From Haloprofundus salinisoli (GTDB taxonomy: Archaea > Halobacteriota > Halobacteria > Halobacteriales > Haloferacaceae): DNA of 64,000 nucleotides. The stretch spans positions 620,001 to 684,000 of the forward strand of contig NZ_CP083663.1 of NCBI RefSeq assembly GCF_020097815.1, read 5' to 3'. Of the stretch, positions 3,916 through 23,310 are shown in pieces; position 1 is the stretch's first letter; every line of letters starts with the position of its first letter. The translations under genes were made by a program, and so were the position numbers. Under the pieces are notes generated by a model. That model did not search any database and had not been told where the DNA came from. It saw only the letters and a program-made list of their open reading frames with translations.

Positions 3916-5202
3916 CTACTGCAGGTCCTCGACGACCGCCCGCGCCGCCTTCGCCCCGCTCTCCATCGCGCCCTGAATCGACGACCACTCGGTGTAGTCG
4001 CCCGCGAGATACACCCACCCCTCGGGGTCGTCCGCGTCCGGGAGCGTCTCGTAGATTCCCGGCGGCTGGACGAACTGTGCGAACGGGACGCGCGTCGTTT
4101 TCAGGAGGCGGAGTCCGTCGAACGTCCGGTCGGGGTACCACGCCGACAGCTCCTCGCGCGTCCGCTCGAACAGCGTCTCCTCCTCGGCGCTCTGGGCGTT
4201 TTTCCCGAGGAACGTCGCGCTGAGAAACACCGTGTTCTTCGGCGCGTACTCCGGAGCGACCTCCGAGAGCGGCGCGACCGTATTGGGCGTGGCGTCGCCC
4301 GCGTTCAACAGCAGTTTGCGGTCGGTCCCGAGCGACGCGCCGCCGCGAATCGCGTAGTACTGGGTGACGCAGCCGGTTCCCTCGGTCGGAATCGACTCGA
4401 CGCCCGTGAGGTCGCGCGCCGTCTTCGGGTCCGCGGCGACGACGACGGCCTCGGACTCGACTTGCTCGCCGTCGACGGTGACCGCGACACCGTCGTCCTC
4501 GCTGGCTCCTTCGACGGTCTCGACCGACTCCCCGAGACGAATCTCCGCGCCCGCCTCCCGCGCCTTGGCCGCCAACTGCTCGGGAACCGCCCCCATCCCC
4601 GCTGCGGGGACGCCGATTTTCCCCCGCGAGAGCGACCGGAATGTGTACTCGAAGACGGATTTGGAACTGCCGAGCGACCGGTCGAGCGTGATACCGCCGT
4701 AGAAGGGGGCGACGAAGTTCTCGATGTAGTCGTCCGAGAAGCCCCAGTTTTCGAGGTACTCTCGAATCGACGGCTCGGAACCGGTGAAAAACTCCGACTC
4801 GCGGCCACTGGAGACGTGTTGACGGAGCGCGAGCGTCCGCGCCTTGTCCCAGAGCGTCACCTCGTCGTTGCGAAGCGTCTCCGGCAGGGAGCTGAGGTCC
4901 CGAAGCGGGTCCGACAGCACCGAGCGCTTGCCGGGTCGCGCGATGACCGCGCCGGGCGAGAACGTCCGCAGGTTCAGCGCGTCGAGGTCGAGCTCCCGCT
5001 GGACTGCGGGGTAGGCGGTGAAGAGCACTTGAAAACCGCAGTCGAACGTGTACCCGCCTTCGTGTTCGGTTCGGACGCGGCCCCCGACGTCCTCGCGTTC
5101 CTCGTATACTGTCACGTCGAACCCCGCGTCGGCGAGGTGGCGAGCGGCGACGAGGCCCGCGAGACCCGCGCCGACGACGGAGACGGCTGTATCGTCTGGC
5201 AT
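3916..5202 (-). CDS. FAD-dependent amine-oxidase/phytoene-desaturase-like oxidoreductase
   Basis: A 428-residue flavoprotein. The N-terminal dinucleotide motif VGAGLAGLVAARHLADAGF, the following acidic end EEREDVGGRV and the C-terminal FAD clasp VYLAGDYTEWSSIQGAMESG are all present. These are hallmarks of the NAD(P)/FAD amine-oxidase superfamily that includes protoporphyrinogen oxidase and carotenoid desaturases. The sequence does not decide between these substrates. The ATG at 5202 (MPDDTAVSVVGAG) is preferred to a longer 40-residue extension that lacks structure. The gene is convergent with the alcohol dehydrogenase and divergent from threonine synthase. Confidence 0.85.
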   Translation of the reverse strand: MPDDTAVSVVGAGLAGLVAARHLADAGFDVTVYEEREDVGGRVRTEHEGGYTFDCGFQVLFTAYPAVQRELDLDALNLRTFSPGAVIARPGKRSVLSDPLRDLSSLPETLRNDEVTLWDKARTLALRQHVSSGRESEFFTGSEPSIREYLENWGFSDDYIENFVAPFYGGITLDRSLGSSKSVFEYTFRSLSRGKIGVPAAGMGAVPEQLAAKAREAGAEIRLGESVETVEGASEDDGVAVTVDGEQVESEAVVVAADPKTARDLTGVESIPTEGTGCVTQYYAIRGGASLGTDRKLLLNAGDATPNTVAPLSEVAPEYAPKNTVFLSATFLGKNAQSAEEETLFERTREELSAWYPDRTFDGLRLLKTTRVPFAQFVQPPGIYETLPDADDPEGWVYLAGDYTEWSSIQGAMESGAKAARAVVEDLQ

Positions 5203-5330
5203 ACACCACTGTTGAGTGGCGCGATACAAAGCATCACCTGACGAGTCGGTCCGGGAGTCGTCCTCCCACCCGGCGTCGGACGCCTCCGCCCAACGGGAAG
5301 CGATTAGTCGGTGCCGTCGCAACGGCCGGT

Positions 5331-6524
5331 ATGCAGACTAGCGAGGCGTTCTCCGGACTGGCGTGCGTCGACTGCGGGACGGTCCACGGTGCGGAGGTAG
5401 CCGGCCGCTGCCCCGACTGCGGCGGACCGCTCGACGCGCAGTACGATTACGACGCGGTCGACGCCGACTGGGAGTCGTTCGCGGGCGAGACGCGGGGAAT
5501 GTGGGCGTTCGACGCGCTTCTTCCGTTCTCGGCGAGCGACGCCGTCAGCGCCGCCGAGGGACGGACGCCGCTCGTCGACGCGCCGCGACTCGCCGAGGAA
5601 CTCGGCGTCGGACGCGTCGTCGTGAAGGACGAGGGACGCAACCCGACCGGGACGTTCCTCGACCGGGGGATGAGCCTCGCGCTGACCGCCGCCGCCCAGC
5701 ACGCCGCGGACGACGATATCGAACCGCTCGCGCTGGCGACGCCGGGTAATGCCGGACAGGCAGCGGCGGCGTACGCCGGGCGCGTCGGCCTCCGCTCGTA
5801 CTCGTTCGTCCCCTCCCGGTCGGCCTTCTCGAACAAGGCGATGATCAACGTCCACGGCGGCGAGATGCGCGTCGTCGGCGGGCGCTATCCGCAGGCGAAA
5901 GACGCCGTCGACGAGCAACTGGCGACCGAGTACTACTCGCTGCAGGAGTTCACGACGCCGTACCGCCACGAGGGTGCGAAGACGCTCGCGTTCGAGCTGG
6001 TCGCGGACCTCGACGGCGAGATTCCGGACGCCGTCGTCGTCCCCGCCTCGACGGGCGAACTCGTCGTCGGTCTCGAAAAGGGGTTCCGCGAACTCCGCGA
6101 AGTCGGACTCGTCGACGACGTGCCGCCGCTGTACGCGGTCCAACCCGAGAAGTGCGCGCCCGTCGTCGCCGCCGTCGAACGCGGCGACGAGCGTATTGAA
6201 CCGTGGGAGCTGCCGGACACCATCGTCGGCGAACTCGAAGTGCCGGACCCCGAAGGCGGCGAACTCGCGCTCGCGGCGCTCGACGAGGCCGGCGGCGACG
6301 CCGTCGCCGTCTCCGACGACGACATTCTCGCATCCGCTGTCGCCGCGGCCCAACACGAGGCCATCGAGGTCGGGCTGGCGGGCGGGGCGGCCCCGGCGGG
6401 CGCGTGGAGCCTCGCGGAAGAAGGGAGACTTGGCGACGACGACACCGTCGTCCTCGTCAACACCGAATCGGGACTGAAGACGCCCGACGTGCTCCGCAGT
6501 CACCTGATGGGACAGGGTATCTGA
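5331..6524 (+). CDS. thrC: Threonine synthase
   Basis: A 397-residue fold-type II PLP enzyme that converts O-phosphohomoserine to threonine. The N-terminal zinc ribbon (Cys12, Cys15, Cys27, Cys30) is the pattern seen in archaeal ThrC. The PLP lysine sits in VVKDEGRNPTGTFLDRG near residue 99. A phosphate-binding ATPGNAGQAAAAYAG loop follows, and the NTESGLKTPDV C-terminal block is typical. Diaminopropionate ammonia-lyase-like relatives share the fold, but the zinc ribbon and the phosphate loop favour threonine synthase. The ATG start lies 129 bp from the divergent FAD oxidoreductase. Confidence 0.9.
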   Translation: MQTSEAFSGLACVDCGTVHGAEVAGRCPDCGGPLDAQYDYDAVDADWESFAGETRGMWAFDALLPFSASDAVSAAEGRTPLVDAPRLAEELGVGRVVVKDEGRNPTGTFLDRGMSLALTAAAQHAADDDIEPLALATPGNAGQAAAAYAGRVGLRSYSFVPSRSAFSNKAMINVHGGEMRVVGGRYPQAKDAVDEQLATEYYSLQEFTTPYRHEGAKTLAFELVADLDGEIPDAVVVPASTGELVVGLEKGFRELREVGLVDDVPPLYAVQPEKCAPVVAAVERGDERIEPWELPDTIVGELEVPDPEGGELALAALDEAGGDAVAVSDDDILASAVAAAQHEAIEVGLAGGAAPAGAWSLAEEGRLGDDDTVVLVNTESGLKTPDVLRSHLMGQGI

Positions 6525-6656
6525 GTCGGAACCACGCGACCGACGACCGCGACTGACGACCGAACCCGACACCACCGCGCGCTTTTCCCGCCGCCGGTCG
6601 TACTCTCCTCGCTCTCAGTTCGACCGTCGAGGCGGACTGCGCGCGACGGACCAACC

Positions 6657-7979
6657 ATGACCGCGAACGCGACACCCGAAACAGGAACGGAACGCCTGAC
6701 CCCCGACGTGGTCGTCGTCGGGGCCGGTCCCGCCGGATGCGTCCTGAGCTACGTGCTCGCCCGCAGCGGCGTCGAGACGCTTTTGCTCGAACGCAACGCG
6801 ACGCTCGACCGGGAGTTCCGCGGTTTCGGCTTCCAGCCGTACGTGGCGTGGGCGTTCGACCAACTCGGTTTCCTCGACGACGTGCTCGACTTACCGCACG
6901 AGCGAGTGCGGCGGGCGTACGCCTCGGTGTACGGTCGACGATACCGGCTCCTCGACTTCACGGACGTCTCGCCGCGGGAGGACTACCTCCTACTGATGGA
7001 CCAACCGCCGCTCTTGGAACTGCTCGTCGAGCGGGCCAGCGAGTTCGAGACGTTCTCGTTTCGGCCGTCGACGGCGGTGACCGACGTTCGAACGTCGGGC
7101 GAACGGGTCGTCGGCGTCGACGCGCGCGACCGGGAGGCGACCGTCGACCTCGAAGTCGAAAGCCGCCTCGTCGTCGGCGCGGACGGTCGTTACTCGACGG
7201 TTCGGAAGGCGGCGGGAATCGACGCGGGACTGCTGGAGTCGAAACTCGAAATCGTCTGGTTCAAACTCGAAGACGCCAGCATCGACGTGACGACGCAACT
7301 GCGCGTCGGCGAGTCGGGTATCCTCGTGTACGCGCCGCTCAGCGACTCGGTCGCCCAGTGCGGGTGGCCCATCGAGAAGGGGAGCTACAGTGACCTCCGT
7401 GAGCAGGGGATCGAGGCGTTCCGCCGGGACCTCGTCTCCGTCGACCCCGACCTCCACGGCACCGTCGAGACCCAGCTCGGGGGTTTCGAGGACTGCTCGC
7501 TGCTGCACGTCGAACCGGGGCTCTGCGACCGCTGGGTCGACGACGGCTTGCTACTCCTCGGCGACGCTGCCCACGTCGCCTCGCCGTTCGGCGGGCAGGG
7601 CAACAGCCTCGCCGTTCAGGACGCCGTCGTCGCCCACGAGACGATTGCGACGGCGCTCGCGGAGACGGACCGAAGCGACGGCGCGCTCCCCGCCGAGCGG
7701 CTGCGCCCGTACGAGAAGCGGCGGTATCCGGCCGTCGAGCGGGTGCTCCGACTCCAACGCCGGACCGAGTCGTTCGTGACGGGACTGCTCCTGCACGGCT
7801 ACCGCGTTCCGCGGTGGATTCGCGTGCCGGCGCTTCGCGCGACGTTCGGCGCACTCTCGCACGTCGGGCCGTCCCCGCTCGCCCGCCATCAGCAGCGGCT
7901 GCTCGCGTACGGGCCGGACCCGCCGCGGGTCGACACGACGCGCTTTGCCCCCGACGAGTCCGCAGCGGAGACGGACTAA
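6657..7979 (+). CDS. FAD-dependent monooxygenase / geranylgeranyl-reductase-like oxidoreductase
   Basis: A 440-residue group A flavoprotein. Three hallmark motifs are present: GxGxxG in VVGAGPAGCVLSYVLARSG (~22-40), the DG motif in VVGADGRYSTVRKAAGI (~178-194) and the GD motif in LLLGDAAHVASPFGGQGNS (~300-318). This is the UbiH / p-hydroxybenzoate hydroxylase / geranylgeranyl reductase superfamily. In haloarchaea such proteins act on isoprenoids, quinones or aromatics; the substrate here is unassigned. The C-terminus (~last 60 residues) is basic and could form an amphipathic membrane contact. The ATG start gives an acidic leader of ~15 residues before the FAD motif. Confidence 0.85.
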   Translation: MTANATPETGTERLTPDVVVVGAGPAGCVLSYVLARSGVETLLLERNATLDREFRGFGFQPYVAWAFDQLGFLDDVLDLPHERVRRAYASVYGRRYRLLDFTDVSPREDYLLLMDQPPLLELLVERASEFETFSFRPSTAVTDVRTSGERVVGVDARDREATVDLEVESRLVVGADGRYSTVRKAAGIDAGLLESKLEIVWFKLEDASIDVTTQLRVGESGILVYAPLSDSVAQCGWPIEKGSYSDLREQGIEAFRRDLVSVDPDLHGTVETQLGGFEDCSLLHVEPGLCDRWVDDGLLLLGDAAHVASPFGGQGNSLAVQDAVVAHETIATALAETDRSDGALPAERLRPYEKRRYPAVERVLRLQRRTESFVTGLLLHGYRVPRWIRVPALRATFGALSHVGPSPLARHQQRLLAYGPDPPRVDTTRFAPDESAAETD

Positions 7980-18593: not shown

Positions 18594-19379
18594 ATGCCAC
18601 GCTCCGTCGGTGTCGTCGTCCCCGCGTATCGGCCGGACGCCGACCAGCTCGCGAGCTATCTCGACGCGCTGACGGAGCGACTGGATCCGGAGGCGGTCCG
18701 CGTCGAACTCGACGCGCCGACGCCGGAGTTGGTCGACGAACTGTCGTCGCTCCCGGCGACGGTGAACGTGTCGCCGGTTCGCCGCGGGAAGGGGGCGGCG
18801 ATAACCGCCGGCTTCGAGGCGCTGTCGACGGACGTGTTCGCGTTCGTCGACGCCGACGGGAGCACACCGGCCGACTCGTTCTCTGACGTACTCGCGCCGG
18901 TGCTCGCGGACGAGGCGGACCTGGGCGTCGGGTCGCGGCGGCACCCCGACGCGACGGTGACCGCCCACCAGACGTTCGCTCGCCGCCGCCTCGGGGACGG
19001 CTTCGCGTGTCTCGCAAAACGCCTGCTCGACACGGAACTGTACGACTACCAGTGCGGCGCGAAGGCGATGACCGCCGACGCGTGGGTCGACGTTCGCGAC
19101 CACCTCTACGAACCGGGCTTCGCCTGGGACGTCGAACTCGTCGCCGTCGCCGCCGCGTTGGACCACGCGCTCGTTGAGGTGCCCGTCGAGTGGGAGGACA
19201 GGCCGGGGTCGACCGTCTCGCCGGTCCGGACGACTCTCGATCTCGGGCGGAGTCTGCTGTCGGCGCGCCATCGCGCGAAACTCATCCGCGAAGACCGACT
19301 GCACGCGATGTTCGACGCCCGCCGGTCGACGACGCCGTCGCTCGTCGAGCGTCTCGGACCCGACCCGATAGAGGACTGA
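18594..19379 (+). CDS. Family 2 glycosyltransferase, dolichol-phosphate-sugar synthase type
   Basis: A 261-residue GT-A enzyme starting MPRSVGVVVPAYRPDADQLA. The nucleotide-sugar region RRGKGAAITAGFEAL, the acidic DADGSTP motif (~82-88, DxD role), and DYQCGAKAM with FAWDVELVAVAAAL (acceptor-side EL motif) match the dolichyl-phosphate glucosyl/mannosyl synthase group. No transmembrane helices follow the catalytic domain, unlike Haloferax AglD. The product is likely a dolichol-phosphate-linked sugar. The GtrA gene begins 2 bp downstream, a common pairing for lipid-linked sugar handling. Confidence 0.87.
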   Translation: MPRSVGVVVPAYRPDADQLASYLDALTERLDPEAVRVELDAPTPELVDELSSLPATVNVSPVRRGKGAAITAGFEALSTDVFAFVDADGSTPADSFSDVLAPVLADEADLGVGSRRHPDATVTAHQTFARRRLGDGFACLAKRLLDTELYDYQCGAKAMTADAWVDVRDHLYEPGFAWDVELVAVAAALDHALVEVPVEWEDRPGSTVSPVRTTLDLGRSLLSARHRAKLIREDRLHAMFDARRSTTPSLVERLGPDPIED

Positions 19380-19381
19380 GA

Positions 19382-19828
19382 ATGAGCCGCGTAGCGACGG
19401 AACTGCTGTCGGGCAAGCGATTCGGACAGTTCGTCTCCGTCGGCGCGCTCGGTGCCGTCTTCGATTTGACCGTCAGCACCGTGTTGACCCTCTGGTTCGG
19501 CGTACTGGCGGAGGTGGCGAAACTGGCCGGCGCGGAGGTTGCCATCGTGGTCATGTTTCTGGTCAACGACCGCTGGACGTTCGCCGACGAAGGGGCGTCG
19601 GGAGCGTTTCCGGCGGTTCGACGGCTGTTGAAGTCGAATCTCGTCCGCAGCGGCGGACTCGCGCTCCAGTTCGTCATCGTCCGCGTGCTCAGACAGCAGG
19701 ACGTGACCGTGGTCGTCGCCGGATTCGACCTCTGGCAGGTGATACCGCTGCCCATCGCCATCCTCGCGTCGATGCTGGTCAACTACGTGGCGGAGAGTCT
19801 GCTCACGTGGCGCGTCACGAGTACGTGA
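19382..19828 (+). CDS. GtrA family membrane protein
   Basis: A 148-residue protein with four hydrophobic helices. FGQFVSVGALGAVFDLTVSTVLTL is the usual GtrA first helix, VAIVVMFLVNDRWTFAD matches the conserved N-x-x-W-T-F motif (VNDRWTF), and LVNYVAESLLTWR matches the terminal helix. GtrA proteins are thought to flip or carry undecaprenol/dolichol-phosphate-linked glucose. The ATG lies 2 bp after the stop of the glycosyltransferase gene, so the two form an operon. Confidence 0.9.
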   Translation: MSRVATELLSGKRFGQFVSVGALGAVFDLTVSTVLTLWFGVLAEVAKLAGAEVAIVVMFLVNDRWTFADEGASGAFPAVRRLLKSNLVRSGGLALQFVIVRVLRQQDVTVVVAGFDLWQVIPLPIAILASMLVNYVAESLLTWRVTST

Positions 19829-19913
19829 ATCGCGATGAGAGATGCCACGGCGAAAACTGACATACGGCGTCGGAATCATAACCCTTAACCCGGGGCATCC
19901 TGTTGTCAGAAGT

Positions 19914-19988
19914 AGCGGGATGGGATAGCCAGGAGATTCCGCCGGGCTCATAACCCGGAGATCGGTAGTTCAAATCTACCTCCCGCTA
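19914..19988 (+). tRNA. Initiator tRNA-Met (CAU)
   Basis: A 75 nt cloverleaf. The acceptor AGCGGGA pairs with TCCCGCT, giving the A1:U72 pair typical of archaeal initiators; the discriminator is A. The D-stem is GGA/TCC around an AGCCAGGAGA-type loop. The anticodon stem CCGGG/CCCGG holds the three consecutive G:C pairs (29-31:39-41) that mark initiator tRNAs, with loop CTCATAA and anticodon CAT. The T-arm is GGTAG-TTCAAAT-CTACC. No intron is present and the CCA is not encoded. This distinguishes it from elongator Met and Ile2 (CAU). Confidence 0.96.
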
Positions 19989-19995
19989 TTCTCCT

Positions 19996-20049
19996 GACGA
20001 ATCGAACGCCGAGCGAGGAGGTTTATCTCCGAGCGTTGCTCGATTCGTC
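19996..20049 (+). repeat. Inverted repeat directly behind the initiator tRNA
   Basis: GACGAATCGA at 19996-20005 and TCGATTCGTC at 20040-20049 form a perfect 10 bp stem. It can extend by ACGC/GCGT with a 3 nt bulge, leaving a loop that contains GGTTTATC. It lies 7 bp after the tRNA 3' end. It could act as a processing or termination structure, or be residue of a mobile element; the sequence does not decide. Confidence 0.6.
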
Positions 20050-20108
20050 GTGAATAGCTTAGTGGTTGTTTGAACGAGAGGACGAGCGAACGATGTGAGC
20101 GAGTCCGC

Positions 20109-20152
20109 GTAGTTCAAATCTACCTTCCGCTGCTCTCCTGACGAATCGAACA
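20109..20152 (+). repeat. Degenerate direct copy of the initiator-tRNA 3' end (att-like)
   Basis: Bases 20109-20152 repeat 19965-20008, the T-arm plus acceptor strand and flank of the initiator tRNA, with about four mismatches. GTAGTTCAAATCTACC is identical, then TTCCGCTGCTCTCC versus TCCCGCTATTCTCC, then identical TGACGAATCGAAC. The 5' half of a tRNA is absent, so it is not a functional tRNA gene. A tRNA 3' end duplicated downstream is the usual footprint of a tyrosine-recombinase integration, but no integrase gene is visible. Upstream bases 20050-20108 contain a D-arm-like ATAGCTTAGTGG run and the common haloarchaeal GAGCGAACG...GTGAGCGAG motif. Confidence 0.55.
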
Positions 20153-20177
20153 CCATACGAAAAGACGGACAGAGGAG

Positions 20178-20333
20178 TCAGTGTCGCTCCGGCGGACCGC
20201 CGTCGCCCGAGAGAAAAATACTGTCCTGCGTCGAGTCGAAGTACACTTCGAGCGCGCGTAGCGTGCCTGCGTACGCCGCAGTCATGACGAATGTGAAGCC
20301 AATCAGGGCGGGGAGGAGGAGGTCGACCACCAT
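20178..20333 (-). CDS. Small single-pass membrane protein, unknown
   Basis: A 51-residue frame from ATG at 20333: MVVDLLLPALIGFTFVMTAAYAG followed by a short acidic tail with FDSTQDSIFLSGDGG. One strong transmembrane helix (residues ~2-26) predicts membrane insertion with a cytosolic or external tail. A longer form from a TTG at 20360 would add 9 residues. No family is recognised. It lies among accessory-looking genes downstream of the tRNA repeat, so it might not be expressed. Confidence 0.45.
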   Translation of the reverse strand: MVVDLLLPALIGFTFVMTAAYAGTLRALEVYFDSTQDSIFLSGDGGPPERH

Positions 20334-20457
20334 CGTCGGGTCGTCATTGTAGATTGTCAAAAACAGTTCGATGTACGGTGACGCTCCCGCTTGACGTAGT
20401 CCTGCGAACGACTCACAGATCCAGTCGAATCTGTTAGTGGCGCTGCTCTACTGGTCC

Positions 20458-20973
20458 TCAACCGAAGAACAAATCCGTACCCGGTGGTCGCTCCGCGTTC
20501 GCCGGGAGTTCGTCGAACCACCCCGCGTCGACGGCGCCACCTTCGTCGACGACCGGTATTCCTACATCTGCCCCGGGCGTCGCGCCAAAGACGACGAAGT
20601 TTCGAGTCGTCTCTCTGTTGCCGTCCTCGTGACGCGCCGTGTAGCGCCAGACGCCCTCGACGGCGTCCAGCGTGACGGCGAGTCCGGCTTGTTCCTCGAC
20701 CCACGCCCGGGCGACGTCGGCGTACTCTTCACCGGGCGCGACCGAGGGCGAGGGAATCTTCCACCGGCAACTCTCGGTTACCCGAAGCACCAGCACTGAA
20801 CCGTCACCGTTCGTGACGCCGATTGGTGCCATGTCGTCGAGGTCTGCGACGACGCCGAACGTGTCGTTGTCGACGCGGTCCGTTCGCTCGTGGAACGGAA
20901 CATCGGCGTGCTCGCGGAGGGATTCGAGGTCCGAGCACGACCCGAGGTCGGTGGGCGCTGTGGAGTCTCTCAT
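20458..20973 (-). CDS. Nudix-like domain protein with degenerate Nudix box
   Basis: A 171-residue protein. The fold layout fits the Nudix superfamily (GSVLVLRVTESCRWKIPSPSV, then the putative Nudix helix, then WFDELPAN). However the Nudix box reads GEEYADVARAWVEEQAGL where the catalytic REUxEE would be AWVEEQ, so the key Arg and at least one catalytic Glu are missing. It may be a catalytically inactive binding or regulatory protein, or a diverged hydrolase. It is divergent from the gene at 21091 with 117 bp between them. Confidence 0.65.
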   Translation of the reverse strand: MRDSTAPTDLGSCSDLESLREHADVPFHERTDRVDNDTFGVVADLDDMAPIGVTNGDGSVLVLRVTESCRWKIPSPSVAPGEEYADVARAWVEEQAGLAVTLDAVEGVWRYTARHEDGNRETTRNFVVFGATPGADVGIPVVDEGGAVDAGWFDELPANAERPPGTDLFFG

Positions 20974-21090
20974 CGGGGTAACTGGACGGACAGTGAACCG
21001 TCACCTGTATAATACCTGTGTCCGCGGGAACCAGCGACCACCTGAGTGGCCAAACGACCGATTGATACCGACGTCGAGCGCCGATGTCGT

Positions 21091-21906
21091 ATGCGACTCT
21101 CCGACATCGGTTACCGGCTTCCGAAACGGAACGACGCGGAACGTCGAGGTTACGATTCGCTGGCGACGTTGCTCGTCGCTGCAGGCGCAGAGCACGAGGA
21201 CCCACAACACCGACTCGCGGCGACGGAACCAGCCAATGCCTTGCCGACGACGACGCTCGACACGACGGACGCCGCACCGCACCTTCGATTCGACGGCATC
21301 GAGGTCGACGAACGGGTCGGCGAGTTCGCACTCGTCGGCGACGACGCTGCACCGTCGACGACCAGCACCCAACGGGAGACGGAAGGACCCGCCGACGAGT
21401 CGCCGACACTCTCGGCTGTCGCCGCTCGTCTCTCGGAACACGTCGCAGCGCTCGACCACAGCGGCGTCAACATCCCGGAATCGACGCTCTTGGCCACGCG
21501 GTGGAACAAACTAATCGACACCTTCGCGGCGGAATGTGCAGTGTACCGTTACCCGACCGGTGCGCCGTTTCCCTTCGTGATTCCGACGACCGACGCCGAG
21601 TTTCGGGACGATATCGAGCGGTTCACCGCCGAGCGGACGGCGCGGTTCGAGGTCGTCTACGACGAACAGGCGACGCGGCCTGCTCTCCAGTTCGCCTTTC
21701 GGAGCGACCTCACGCGGGCACGTGCGGAGTCACTGTTCCCGAGCGGGTTCACGATTCCCGGCCTCGAAGACGCGTTCCGGTGTGTGCCCGTCACCTCACC
21801 CTGGCCGGAGGTCGCCGTCCGCGTCGACGTCTACTACGACGATGTCGAAGACGACTGGGCGACCGGCGAGTGGCTGGTCGCCGAGGGTGGGCGAATCGAA
21901 CCGTAA
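21091..21906 (+). CDS. Unrecognised haloarchaeal protein
   Basis: A 271-residue soluble, acidic protein starting MRLSDIGYRLPKRNDAERRG. An N-terminal region (1-120) is low in secondary-structure signals and Thr/Pro-rich. The C-terminal part (~130-271) contains an alpha/beta pattern (LIDTFAAECAVYRYPTG, FVIPTTDAEFRDDIERF, WPEVAVRVDVYYDDVEDDW). No known motif or cysteine cluster is visible. I took the ATG at 21091, just after TATAATACC at ~21007 and 45 bases inside a longer frame. Codon use is slightly less GC-rich than its neighbours, and it follows the att-like repeat, which hints at accessory content. Confidence 0.65.
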   Translation: MRLSDIGYRLPKRNDAERRGYDSLATLLVAAGAEHEDPQHRLAATEPANALPTTTLDTTDAAPHLRFDGIEVDERVGEFALVGDDAAPSTTSTQRETEGPADESPTLSAVAARLSEHVAALDHSGVNIPESTLLATRWNKLIDTFAAECAVYRYPTGAPFPFVIPTTDAEFRDDIERFTAERTARFEVVYDEQATRPALQFAFRSDLTRARAESLFPSGFTIPGLEDAFRCVPVTSPWPEVAVRVDVYYDDVEDDWATGEWLVAEGGRIEP

Positions 21907-22326
21907 TCAGGTACCGGTGAAGTCGATTCGACTGCCCGACGAGAGGTCGTGTTCCCCGGAGGGGCCGAGGTGCTCGAAGTCGAGCGAGTCGTCGGCGAGG
22001 TACACCGCGTCGCCGCTGACTTCGACGTCGACGGTGTCGAGCGTCGCCCCCTCGCAGGGACCGAAGTCGCAGTAGCCGGTCTCCTGGCCGAACGTCGCGC
22101 CGTGTTTCTGACAGATGATGTCGCCGTTTCTGACGAGCGCACCCGAGCCCTTGTCGAGGCGCACGTCCGTCCAGTGCTGGCAGTAGTTCCGGAAGGCGAC
22201 GACGCTCCCGTCGTCGAGTTTCGTCAGAATCGCCTCGCCGAGGTCGAACCCGTCGCGGAACGTGAACAGCAGCGTCCCGTCCGTCGGGACCTCGGAGAGC
22301 CCCGTGATTCGGCGGTCGTCGTCCAT
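21907..22326 (-). CDS. Rieske [2Fe-2S] domain protein
   Basis: A 139-residue protein. The Rieske cluster ligands are in NYCQHWTDVRL (CxH) and DIICQKHGATFGQETG (CxxH), followed by the GYCDFGPCEGATLDTVDVEV region. It contains only the Rieske domain, so it resembles soluble ferredoxin-type Rieske proteins rather than cytochrome bc1 subunits (no N-terminal helix is seen). The electron partner is unknown. It converges with the preceding hypothetical gene, the two stops nearly touching. Confidence 0.9.
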   Translation of the reverse strand: MDDDRRITGLSEVPTDGTLLFTFRDGFDLGEAILTKLDDGSVVAFRNYCQHWTDVRLDKGSGALVRNGDIICQKHGATFGQETGYCDFGPCEGATLDTVDVEVSGDAVYLADDSLDFEHLGPSGEHDLSSGSRIDFTGT

Positions 22327-22395
22327 ACCGTCTCTCGTCGCGCCGCCTTTGAACGTCTTTCCGTCCGCAGTTCCCGCGCTCCGACTCGCGCGACT

Positions 22396-23310
22396 CTACG
22401 ACTCGTACAACTTCTCGACTTGCCGCTCGTACAGCTTCGAGAGCAGTCGCGTCACCGGCCCCGTCTCGACGCCGATGCCGTCGACGGTGCCGACGGGTCG
22501 AATCTCGCGGGTCGAACTCGTGATGAACACCTCGTCGGCCCCCCGGACGTCGTCGGGCGTGAAAACGTCCTCTCGAACCGGTATCCCTTCGGACTCGGCG
22601 AGTTCGAGGACGACGTCGCGGGTGACGCCCGCGAGCACCGGACCGTCGAGAGTCGGCGTGCAGAGGCGCTCGCCGTCGACGAAGAAGACGTTGCTCGTCG
22701 CGCCCTCGGCGACGTAGCCCTCGTCGTCGAGGATGAGCGCTTCGTCCGCGCCCGTGACGCGAAGTTCGAGGAGCGCCAGAATGCCGTTGAGGTAGTTGTG
22801 CGTCTTCGCTTTCGACGGGAGTGCGCGGGTCGATGGGCGGCGCGTCTTCACCGTCTGCAACGTCGCCGGTCCGTCCCACGATTTCTCGCCGCCGACGCCG
22901 CCGCGACCCAGCGGTGTGAGCGTGACGACGACGGTGGGGTCGACCTCCGGCGAAGGAGTGAGTTTCCCGGGTTGGACGCCGCGACTGATGGAGAGCTTCA
23001 CCGAGGCGTCGTCGAGCTCGTTCGCCGCCAGCGCCTCCTCGATTCGCGTTCGGAACGTCTCGTCGGAGAGGCCGTGGTGTAGTTGGAGAATCTCGCACGT
23101 CTCGGCGAGTCGGTCGGCGTGGGCATCCCACTCGAACAGGTGGCCGCCGTAGACGCGAAGCGTCTCGAAGGCGGCGTCGCCGTACATGAACCCCCTATCG
23201 CGGACGTTCACCGTCGCCTCCGACGCCGGTACGAGTTCGCCGTCCACGTGGTAGACGAGCTCTCTGCGGGCGCTCTCGTCGCCATCGTCGTGTGTCTCTC
23301 GCTCACTCAT
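22396..23310 (-). CDS. pabC: Class IV aminotransferase, aminodeoxychorismate lyase-like
   Basis: A 304-residue fold-type IV PLP enzyme. The PLP lysine lies in SKAKTHNYLNGILALLELR, and the phosphate/PLP region reads EGATSNVFFVDG and VLAGVTRDVVLELAESEGI. The family includes branched-chain aminotransferase, D-amino-acid aminotransferase and aminodeoxychorismate lyase. Context decides: it overlaps the 3' end of pabA by 8 bp in a pabB-pabA-pabC order, so 4-amino-4-deoxychorismate to p-aminobenzoate conversion is the likely role. Branched-chain transaminase activity remains possible. The ATG at 23310 is chosen over an upstream one that would overlap more of pabA. Confidence 0.82.
   Translation of the reverse strand: MSERETHDDGDESARRELVYHVDGELVPASEATVNVRDRGFMYGDAAFETLRVYGGHLFEWDAHADRLAETCEILQLHHGLSDETFRTRIEEALAANELDDASVKLSISRGVQPGKLTPSPEVDPTVVVTLTPLGRGGVGGEKSWDGPATLQTVKTRRPSTRALPSKAKTHNYLNGILALLELRVTGADEALILDDEGYVAEGATSNVFFVDGERLCTPTLDGPVLAGVTRDVVLELAESEGIPVREDVFTPDDVRGADEVFITSSTREIRPVGTVDGIGVETGPVTRLLSKLYERQVEKLYES

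Follow-up and report, generated by a model that had tools for sequence, protein, structure and literature searches.

A repeat behind the initiator tRNA gene of Haloprofundus salinisoli as the possible end of a geneless cassette inserted at the tRNA T-loop

Results

The repeat behind tRNA-Met(CAT)

The window, a stretch of 64,000 nucleotides of the Haloprofundus salinisoli contig NZ_CP083663.1 (positions 620,001 to 684,000), contains a single tRNA gene according to ARAGORN. This tRNA-Met(CAT) lies on the forward strand at 19913..19989 (Rfam RF00005 at 19914-19988, 60.5 bits), and we take it to be of the initiator type from its A1-U72 end and its GGG/CCC anticodon stem. A repeat search found that 19965-20010, beginning inside the T-arm of the gene, recurs at 20109-20154. 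The two 46-nt copies are identical at 42 positions (91%), with a period of 144 and 98 bp between them, in agreement with the 44 bases, about four mismatches and 144 bp given in a preliminary description of this DNA. Within the 1400 bp that follow, the best match to the last 24 nt of the tRNA scores 21/24; none of 20 mononucleotide shuffles exceeded 16.

All parts of the repeat unit are read here on the forward strand. The core GTTCAAATC at 19968..19976, located at the start of the repeat (coordinates checked), is the T-loop of the tRNA and would be the proximal copy of a presumed crossover site. It is followed, behind the tRNA, by a payload or trailer module without a gene (19990..20063), which is predicted to form a hairpin from GACGAATCGA and TCGATTCGTC (-14.9 kcal/mol, DNA parameters). 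An inverted T-loop, GGTTGTTTGAACGA, lies just 5' of the second copy at 20064..20077. It was absent from the preliminary description, has 5/14 mismatches to the exact reverse complement, and forms the left arm of a second hairpin by pairing with the right arm, a T-loop copy at 20110..20123 whose core GTTCAAATC is at 20112-20120. The arms enclose a 32-nt inner segment (20078..20109) with a GGAC..GTCC stem. At 20121..20154 the acceptor strand is copied together with the beginning of the tRNA 3' flank; this part would be the old flank in an insertion model. As described before, there is no integrase between the copies, and the unit has no room for a gene. Over this unit Rfam reports the tRNA and, apart from it, just two matches under their gathering scores.

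The same duplicated arrangement is present at the initiator tRNA in all five genomes of the genus. The unit of G001 and G003 is that of the window, with one further unit in G003; G002 combines the same inner sequence with another payload, and G004 carries a different unit. Among these five genomes there is neither an empty site, all of them carrying a unit, nor a larger element at this tRNA. Alignments to 4/4 same-genus genomes cover parts of 19000-22500 on either side of the repeat, which does not support the accessory character that had been assigned to the downstream genes. The degenerate Nudix gene noted there is weakly confirmed by a PF00293 match (E 1.4e-4), and its region, 20457-20931, aligned only in G004 within the DNA of the relatives that was compared. 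A 286-codon frame at 21046-21906 (+) has no Pfam match and aligned in none of the compared DNA of the four relatives.

Similar units behind other tRNA genes

The flanks of all 51 Rfam tRNA matches of the source genome (G000) were examined, and a unit finder was run over the next 700-900 bp behind each tRNA with mononucleotide shuffles as control. A similar unit lies just downstream of 16 of the 53 ARAGORN tRNA calls in G000 (one of the sixteen, Lys at L037, is doubtful), 16/45 in G001 and 12/46 in G004, where the shuffle means are 0.7, 0.3 and 0.4, respectively. These counts are low estimates, because the finder missed the plain unit at the initiator tRNA of G001. In the common build, a short payload precedes a hairpin. 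The left arm of this hairpin reads as the T-loop of the same tRNA in reverse complement, and a second T-loop with a copy of the acceptor comes after it. The set of tRNAs that bear units differs between the three species.

For wider searches we used the strict pattern GATTYGAAYCA-N18..48-TGGTTCRAATC, which misses divergent types, the window's own unit among them. It matches 178 of 292 haloarchaeal genomes of the class, in 61 of 77 genera, and the reversed pattern used as a control had no match among the matches listed for these 292 genomes. In a sample of the phylum, the pattern was found in 50/81 genomes of the same order versus 0/311 from other classes. A scan of genome contigs gave at least 120 stretches, and 76 of the 80 among the matches listed have haloarchaeal titles. 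We also considered viral carriers and rejected them: the pattern occurs in just four stretches of viral contigs, of which L171 is a haloarchaeal provirus-like contig with a tRNA-Glu and a unit at the edge of the piece examined, L172 has no tRNA, and L173 and L174 are bacterial, with T-arm palindromes of the tRNA-Met type. Twelve stretches matching a second pattern, made from the inner sequence, have no T-loop arms and were taken as chance.

The pattern-found units are closely tied to tRNA genes. The matches listed, from 30 loci of the class scan and 80 loci of the contig scan, hold 113 units representing about 30 tRNA species, and 103 of them lie at most 400 bp behind a tRNA on the same strand. 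In 103/113 of these listed matches, the interval between tRNA and unit is too short to hold a gene, and 98 of the 103 tRNA-linked units then carry the acceptor of that very tRNA (at most 3/11 mismatches). The ten others comprise four bacterial units (L228, L247, L259, L286), four that lie within 30 bases of a contig end and are followed by acceptor-like sequence (L170, L230, L233, L284), one with no tRNA in 1.5 kb (L154), and one 3.1 kb behind a tRNA-Val with integrase fragments and a partial copy between (L258). L228, from Bifidobacterium cebidarum, is a T-arm palindrome of tRNA-Met near the contig end.

Paired arms and strand bias

Arm pairing was scored over the 98 distinct units among the matches listed, ignoring kinship and using only bases outside the core that the pattern fixes. 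The first three positions outside the arms are complementary in 86, 68 and 57 of the 98 units, where 1000 shuffles reach at most 69, 51 and 42, and at positions 4-8 the pairing in the 98 units is not above that of the shuffles. The inner stem was evaluated on 74 of 91 inner sequences, those with the usual GGGA/GACC frame. Pairing is seen at its position 1 in 72 and at its position 2 in 71 of the 74 units (shuffle maxima 66 and 40), and position 3 is mostly G opposite A (48/74). In 93/103 units the left arm places a T opposite the G of TGG, which makes a wobble pair on the tRNA-sense strand. This strand also folds more stably than its complement in 93 of 98 units with DNA parameters and in 95 of 98 with RNA parameters, kinship again being ignored. 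Four or more T are present in the first six bases of 30/85 payloads. Inner and trailer sequences are common to different tRNAs in 393 pairs, 10 of them within one genome.

Arrays

The loci examined, which include stretches of the contig scan beyond the 80 listed (numbers above L291) and from which four bacterial loci and the viral loci were left out, contain 323 tRNAs, of which 54 have two or more units; one of these arrays, at a tRNA-Pro with an intron (L355), is spurious. The payload between copies is mostly 50-230 nt. Divergence of the distal copy of the tRNA end exceeds that of every inner copy in 29 of the 54 arrays and is below that of every inner copy in 5, the rest being tied or mixed (sign test by hand about 4e-5, two-sided; the 54 include the spurious L355). 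Once L355 is dropped, 54 of 60 neighbouring unit pairs are less than 70% identical, one is between, and five are at least 90% identical. In G605, four near-identical units of 86-87 bp stand in a row, and the T-stem variant of the tRNA is also that of the inner copies, whereas the last copy retains a different one. The array data therefore suggest that units are added beside the tRNA, mostly with payloads that differ, and that some are duplicated locally.

Filled and empty sites

Comparison between species places a unit between the tRNA and its old flank at Leu-CAA, Gly-CCC, Pro-TGG, Leu-TAG and Gly-TCC. At tRNA-Leu(CAA), G000 and G004 have the flank immediately after the tRNA, and G001 has this flank after its second copy, with a period of 107 bp. 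Among 40 relatives, 16 have the flank immediately after the tRNA, and seven (G001, G002, G258, G605, G064, G044 and G026) have it after the last copy. The sequence of 30 of the loci was examined, and the payloads of the seven filled genomes differ by eye, except for G001 versus G002. At L349, L366 and other tRNA-Leu(CAA) loci, the conserved flank contains one inverted and one direct acceptor-like end (GCGGGAAGA..TCTTCCCTCGCA) that together form a hairpin, which may be an old unit of a different type. At Leu-TAG, the unit of G001 lies between the tRNA and a sequence that is directly behind the tRNA in G004 (90% over 194 bp). That sequence begins an integrase element in G004, and a payload similar to that of G001 (92% over 77 bp) is located on the far side of the element.

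The reverse pattern is seen at Arg-CCT, Arg-TCT, Thr-CGT, Asp and Ser-TGA, where the 'empty' genome retains the flank on the payload side but has neither hairpin nor copy. Because unit-less genomes keep the near flank at several tRNAs, the sequences point to unit loss or decay as well, with gain and loss not polarised by a tree.

Integrase elements and a candidate recombinase

PF00589 has 9 matches in G000, 8 in G001 and 6 in G004. Five elements that bear an integrase were traced behind tRNAs, of 5.5, 9.0 and 22.4 kb in G000, 14.3 kb in G001 and 2.4 kb in G004, and in three of the five a mini-unit is located directly behind the distal end. One of these is the 22.4-kb element behind tRNA-Val(CAC) at G000:C1:2314619-2337191 (L198, L199). 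The att repeats at Gly-TCC and Glu-TTC (G000), Gly-TCC (G001) and Leu-TAG (G004) start well upstream of the T-loop and are not accompanied by an inverse core. The classical integrase elements of these genomes have other boundaries than the mini-units and sit beside them. In L258, on the reverse strand at about 4750-7820, a 3.1-kb stretch behind tRNA-Val(CAC) contains integrase-like fragments in two frames as well as a frame of 501 codons; a partial copy and then the unit come next. Since the partial copy lies between, the unit is distal to the element and is not its end. At L040 (G000) and L124 (G004), two tRNA-Asp genes are about 0.5-0.7 kb apart, and the short frame between them resembles a PD-(D/E)XK nuclease by eye.

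A Xer-like recombinase of 350-353 aa is syntenic and more than 90% identical within the genus, and at 1e-60 it is found in 81/81 genomes of the order and in 0/311 others. Its NCBIfam matches are XerA/XerC-like and below cut-off, the best being the archaeal XerA model with 110.9 against a cut-off of 220. The integron-integrase model TIGR02249 gives it 18.7 bits (cut-off 265); among the PF00589 hits of the three genomes searched, it was the one compared with this model. We regard the protein as a candidate recombinase only, since any class-wide gene would show the same distribution.

Discussion

The repeat behind the initiator tRNA belongs to a family of units that share an anatomy, are tied to tRNAs, have precise filled and empty sites and mixed payloads, and consist of paired arms that fold better on the tRNA-sense strand. 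We lean towards the explanation that the repeat marks the right end of a mobile cassette without genes, inserted site-specifically at the T-loop of the tRNA by a recombinase acting in trans. Each unit would run from one T-loop core (GTTCRAATC) to the next and comprise the acceptor strand, a payload of 65-140 nt, the inverse T-loop, a variable inner hairpin and the core. The recombinase would join the cassette to the tRNA at the T-loop, so that the tRNA is completed by the acceptor end of the cassette, and its former 3' end and flank are pushed downstream. Repeated insertion beside the tRNA would then give a polarised array whose payloads differ. We infer that the units move, that the crossover falls inside the T-loop and that a folded single strand is the substrate, as for integron attC sites. 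A tyrosine recombinase may move them, perhaps the class-wide Xer-like protein. Several observations count against the cassette reading: no circular form, excision junction or recombinase was seen for the units, all five genomes of the genus carry a unit at the initiator tRNA, the window's own unit is of a divergent type, the tRNAs with the reverse flank pattern speak for loss or decay, and the five near-identical pairs among the 60 neighbours show that local duplication occurs too. In addition, the folding bias would equally suit an RNA.

Such units could arise in other ways. The preliminary description had seen in the repeat a relic of an integrated element, possibly a deletion scar. The link to tRNA-targeted integration is borne out by the filled and empty sites and by the polarity of the arrays. 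The scar, in which larger integrase-bearing elements lost their genes and left their attachment sites behind as the copies, fares worse and seems to us quite improbable. The same tRNAs do serve integrase elements in these genomes, and in L258 a tRNA-Val and the unit 3.1 kb behind it have broken integrase frames between them. However, short units are the rule, as 103 of the 113 among the matches listed lie within 400 bp, and the traced integrase elements have att repeats of a different kind, beginning upstream of the T-loop and lacking the inverse core. A deletion would yield neither paired, covarying arms nor arrays in which the payloads are unlike. By the test set out in the preliminary description, the idea falls at the initiator tRNA, because 5/5 genomes of the genus share the arrangement without a larger element. 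Template switching between T-arm hairpins during replication, copying the tRNA end and filling the spacer, would account for near-identical arrays such as that of G605. Local copying of this kind does not put the same inner sequences behind different tRNAs, and 54 of the 60 neighbouring pairs are unlike, so that we consider such replication errors a poor candidate for the origin of the units.

Alternatively, the units might be a selected RNA or DNA signal behind tRNAs, such as a terminator, a processing site or a decoy attachment site, that spreads by homologous exchange and not by site-specific insertion. The compensating pairs in both stems, the better folding of the sense strand and the T-rich start of 30 of the 85 payloads would all fit a signal. 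Yet the presence of a unit behind the same tRNA varies from species to species, 37 of the 53 tRNA calls of the source genome are without one, the empty sites are precise, and Rfam detects nothing but the tRNA. On balance we think a selected signal unlikely.

Integron arrays are among the closest known systems, and the units resemble them in layout: each unit ends in a core, an inverse core and a variable hairpin, neighbours that share the core are unlike, and one strand is favoured in folding. The integron attC core has the consensus GTTRRRY, whereas the unit core GTTCRAATC is the T-loop of a tRNA. Moreover, the units are without genes, their better-folding strand is the tRNA-sense strand, and no integron integrase is known with them. 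We do not file them as an integron, because no integrase has been identified, the core differs and there are no genes. The attC features given in the available text of PMC2727003 are an unpaired central spacer, extrahelical bases and a variable terminal structure. The archaeal integrons of PMC9668308 come from MAGs of nine phyla, and the terms 'tRNA' and 'Halobacteri' are absent from its main text as available.

Archaeal elements that target tRNA genes leave a direct repeat of the tRNA 3' end, rebuilt on one side with the old end on the other, according to the accessible part of PMC8371274, and that of PMC3119063 has Haloquadratum examples of such elements and proviruses. The units likewise have a direct repeat of the tRNA 3' end at both sides, but they are about 85-145 bp long, have no integrase of their own and no cargo, and possess the inverse T-loop hairpin in addition. 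A closer counterpart of the hairpin is found in prophage contigs of the Bifidobacterium type (L173/L344, L345, L346), where a T-arm palindrome of tRNA-Met is the neighbour of a tyrosine recombinase gene; in L344 and L345 the distance to the integrase start is 60 to 75 bp. Of the three contigs examined, the query plus two relatives, two matched by script and the third by eye. They share with the units the inverse T-arm, an inner hairpin, and the T-arm and acceptor of the tRNA; they differ in being a single bacterial site next to an integrase gene, with no arrays seen. Their position beside an integrase gene is a sign that T-arm palindromes can be attachment sites.

In E. coli, 178-bp repeats that each contain the last bases of tRNA-Tyr are known at one locus, tyrT, and are like one another. 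These too are repeated tRNA 3' ends behind a tRNA gene, whereas here about 30 tRNA species and unlike payloads are involved. The paired arms resemble the terminal inverted repeats of MITEs, though they are specific to the tRNA and not to the element. MITEs also have a short fixed target duplication and a parent transposase; the repeat at the haloarchaeal units is the tRNA 3' end. Casposons carry genes for Cas1 and a family B polymerase, and the units, having no genes, carry neither. In the open literature, including the available text of PMC3119063, PMC8371274, PMC2841640, PMC6109161, PMC9668308 and PMC2727003, we found no description of units of this kind.

A broader picture, which we put forward as speculative and rather doubtful, is that of a haloarchaeal integron-like system. 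The T-loop of almost any tRNA would serve as its platform, the folded tRNA-sense single strand as the cassette site and the single-copy Xer-like host protein as the enzyme, and the cassettes would accrete in order and so record the insertions. If the units are selected signals instead, they would be an undescribed class-wide feature of tRNA genes. If the units do move, the tRNA genes of a whole archaeal class carry ordered arrays of geneless cassettes, and a recombination platform is hidden in the most conserved part of these genes. A large part of the hairpins that lie between genes downstream of haloarchaeal tRNAs would thereby be accounted for, and the integron idea would widen beyond genes and beyond bacteria. 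Haloferax volcanii could then become a test bed for the recombination of folded strands in archaea.
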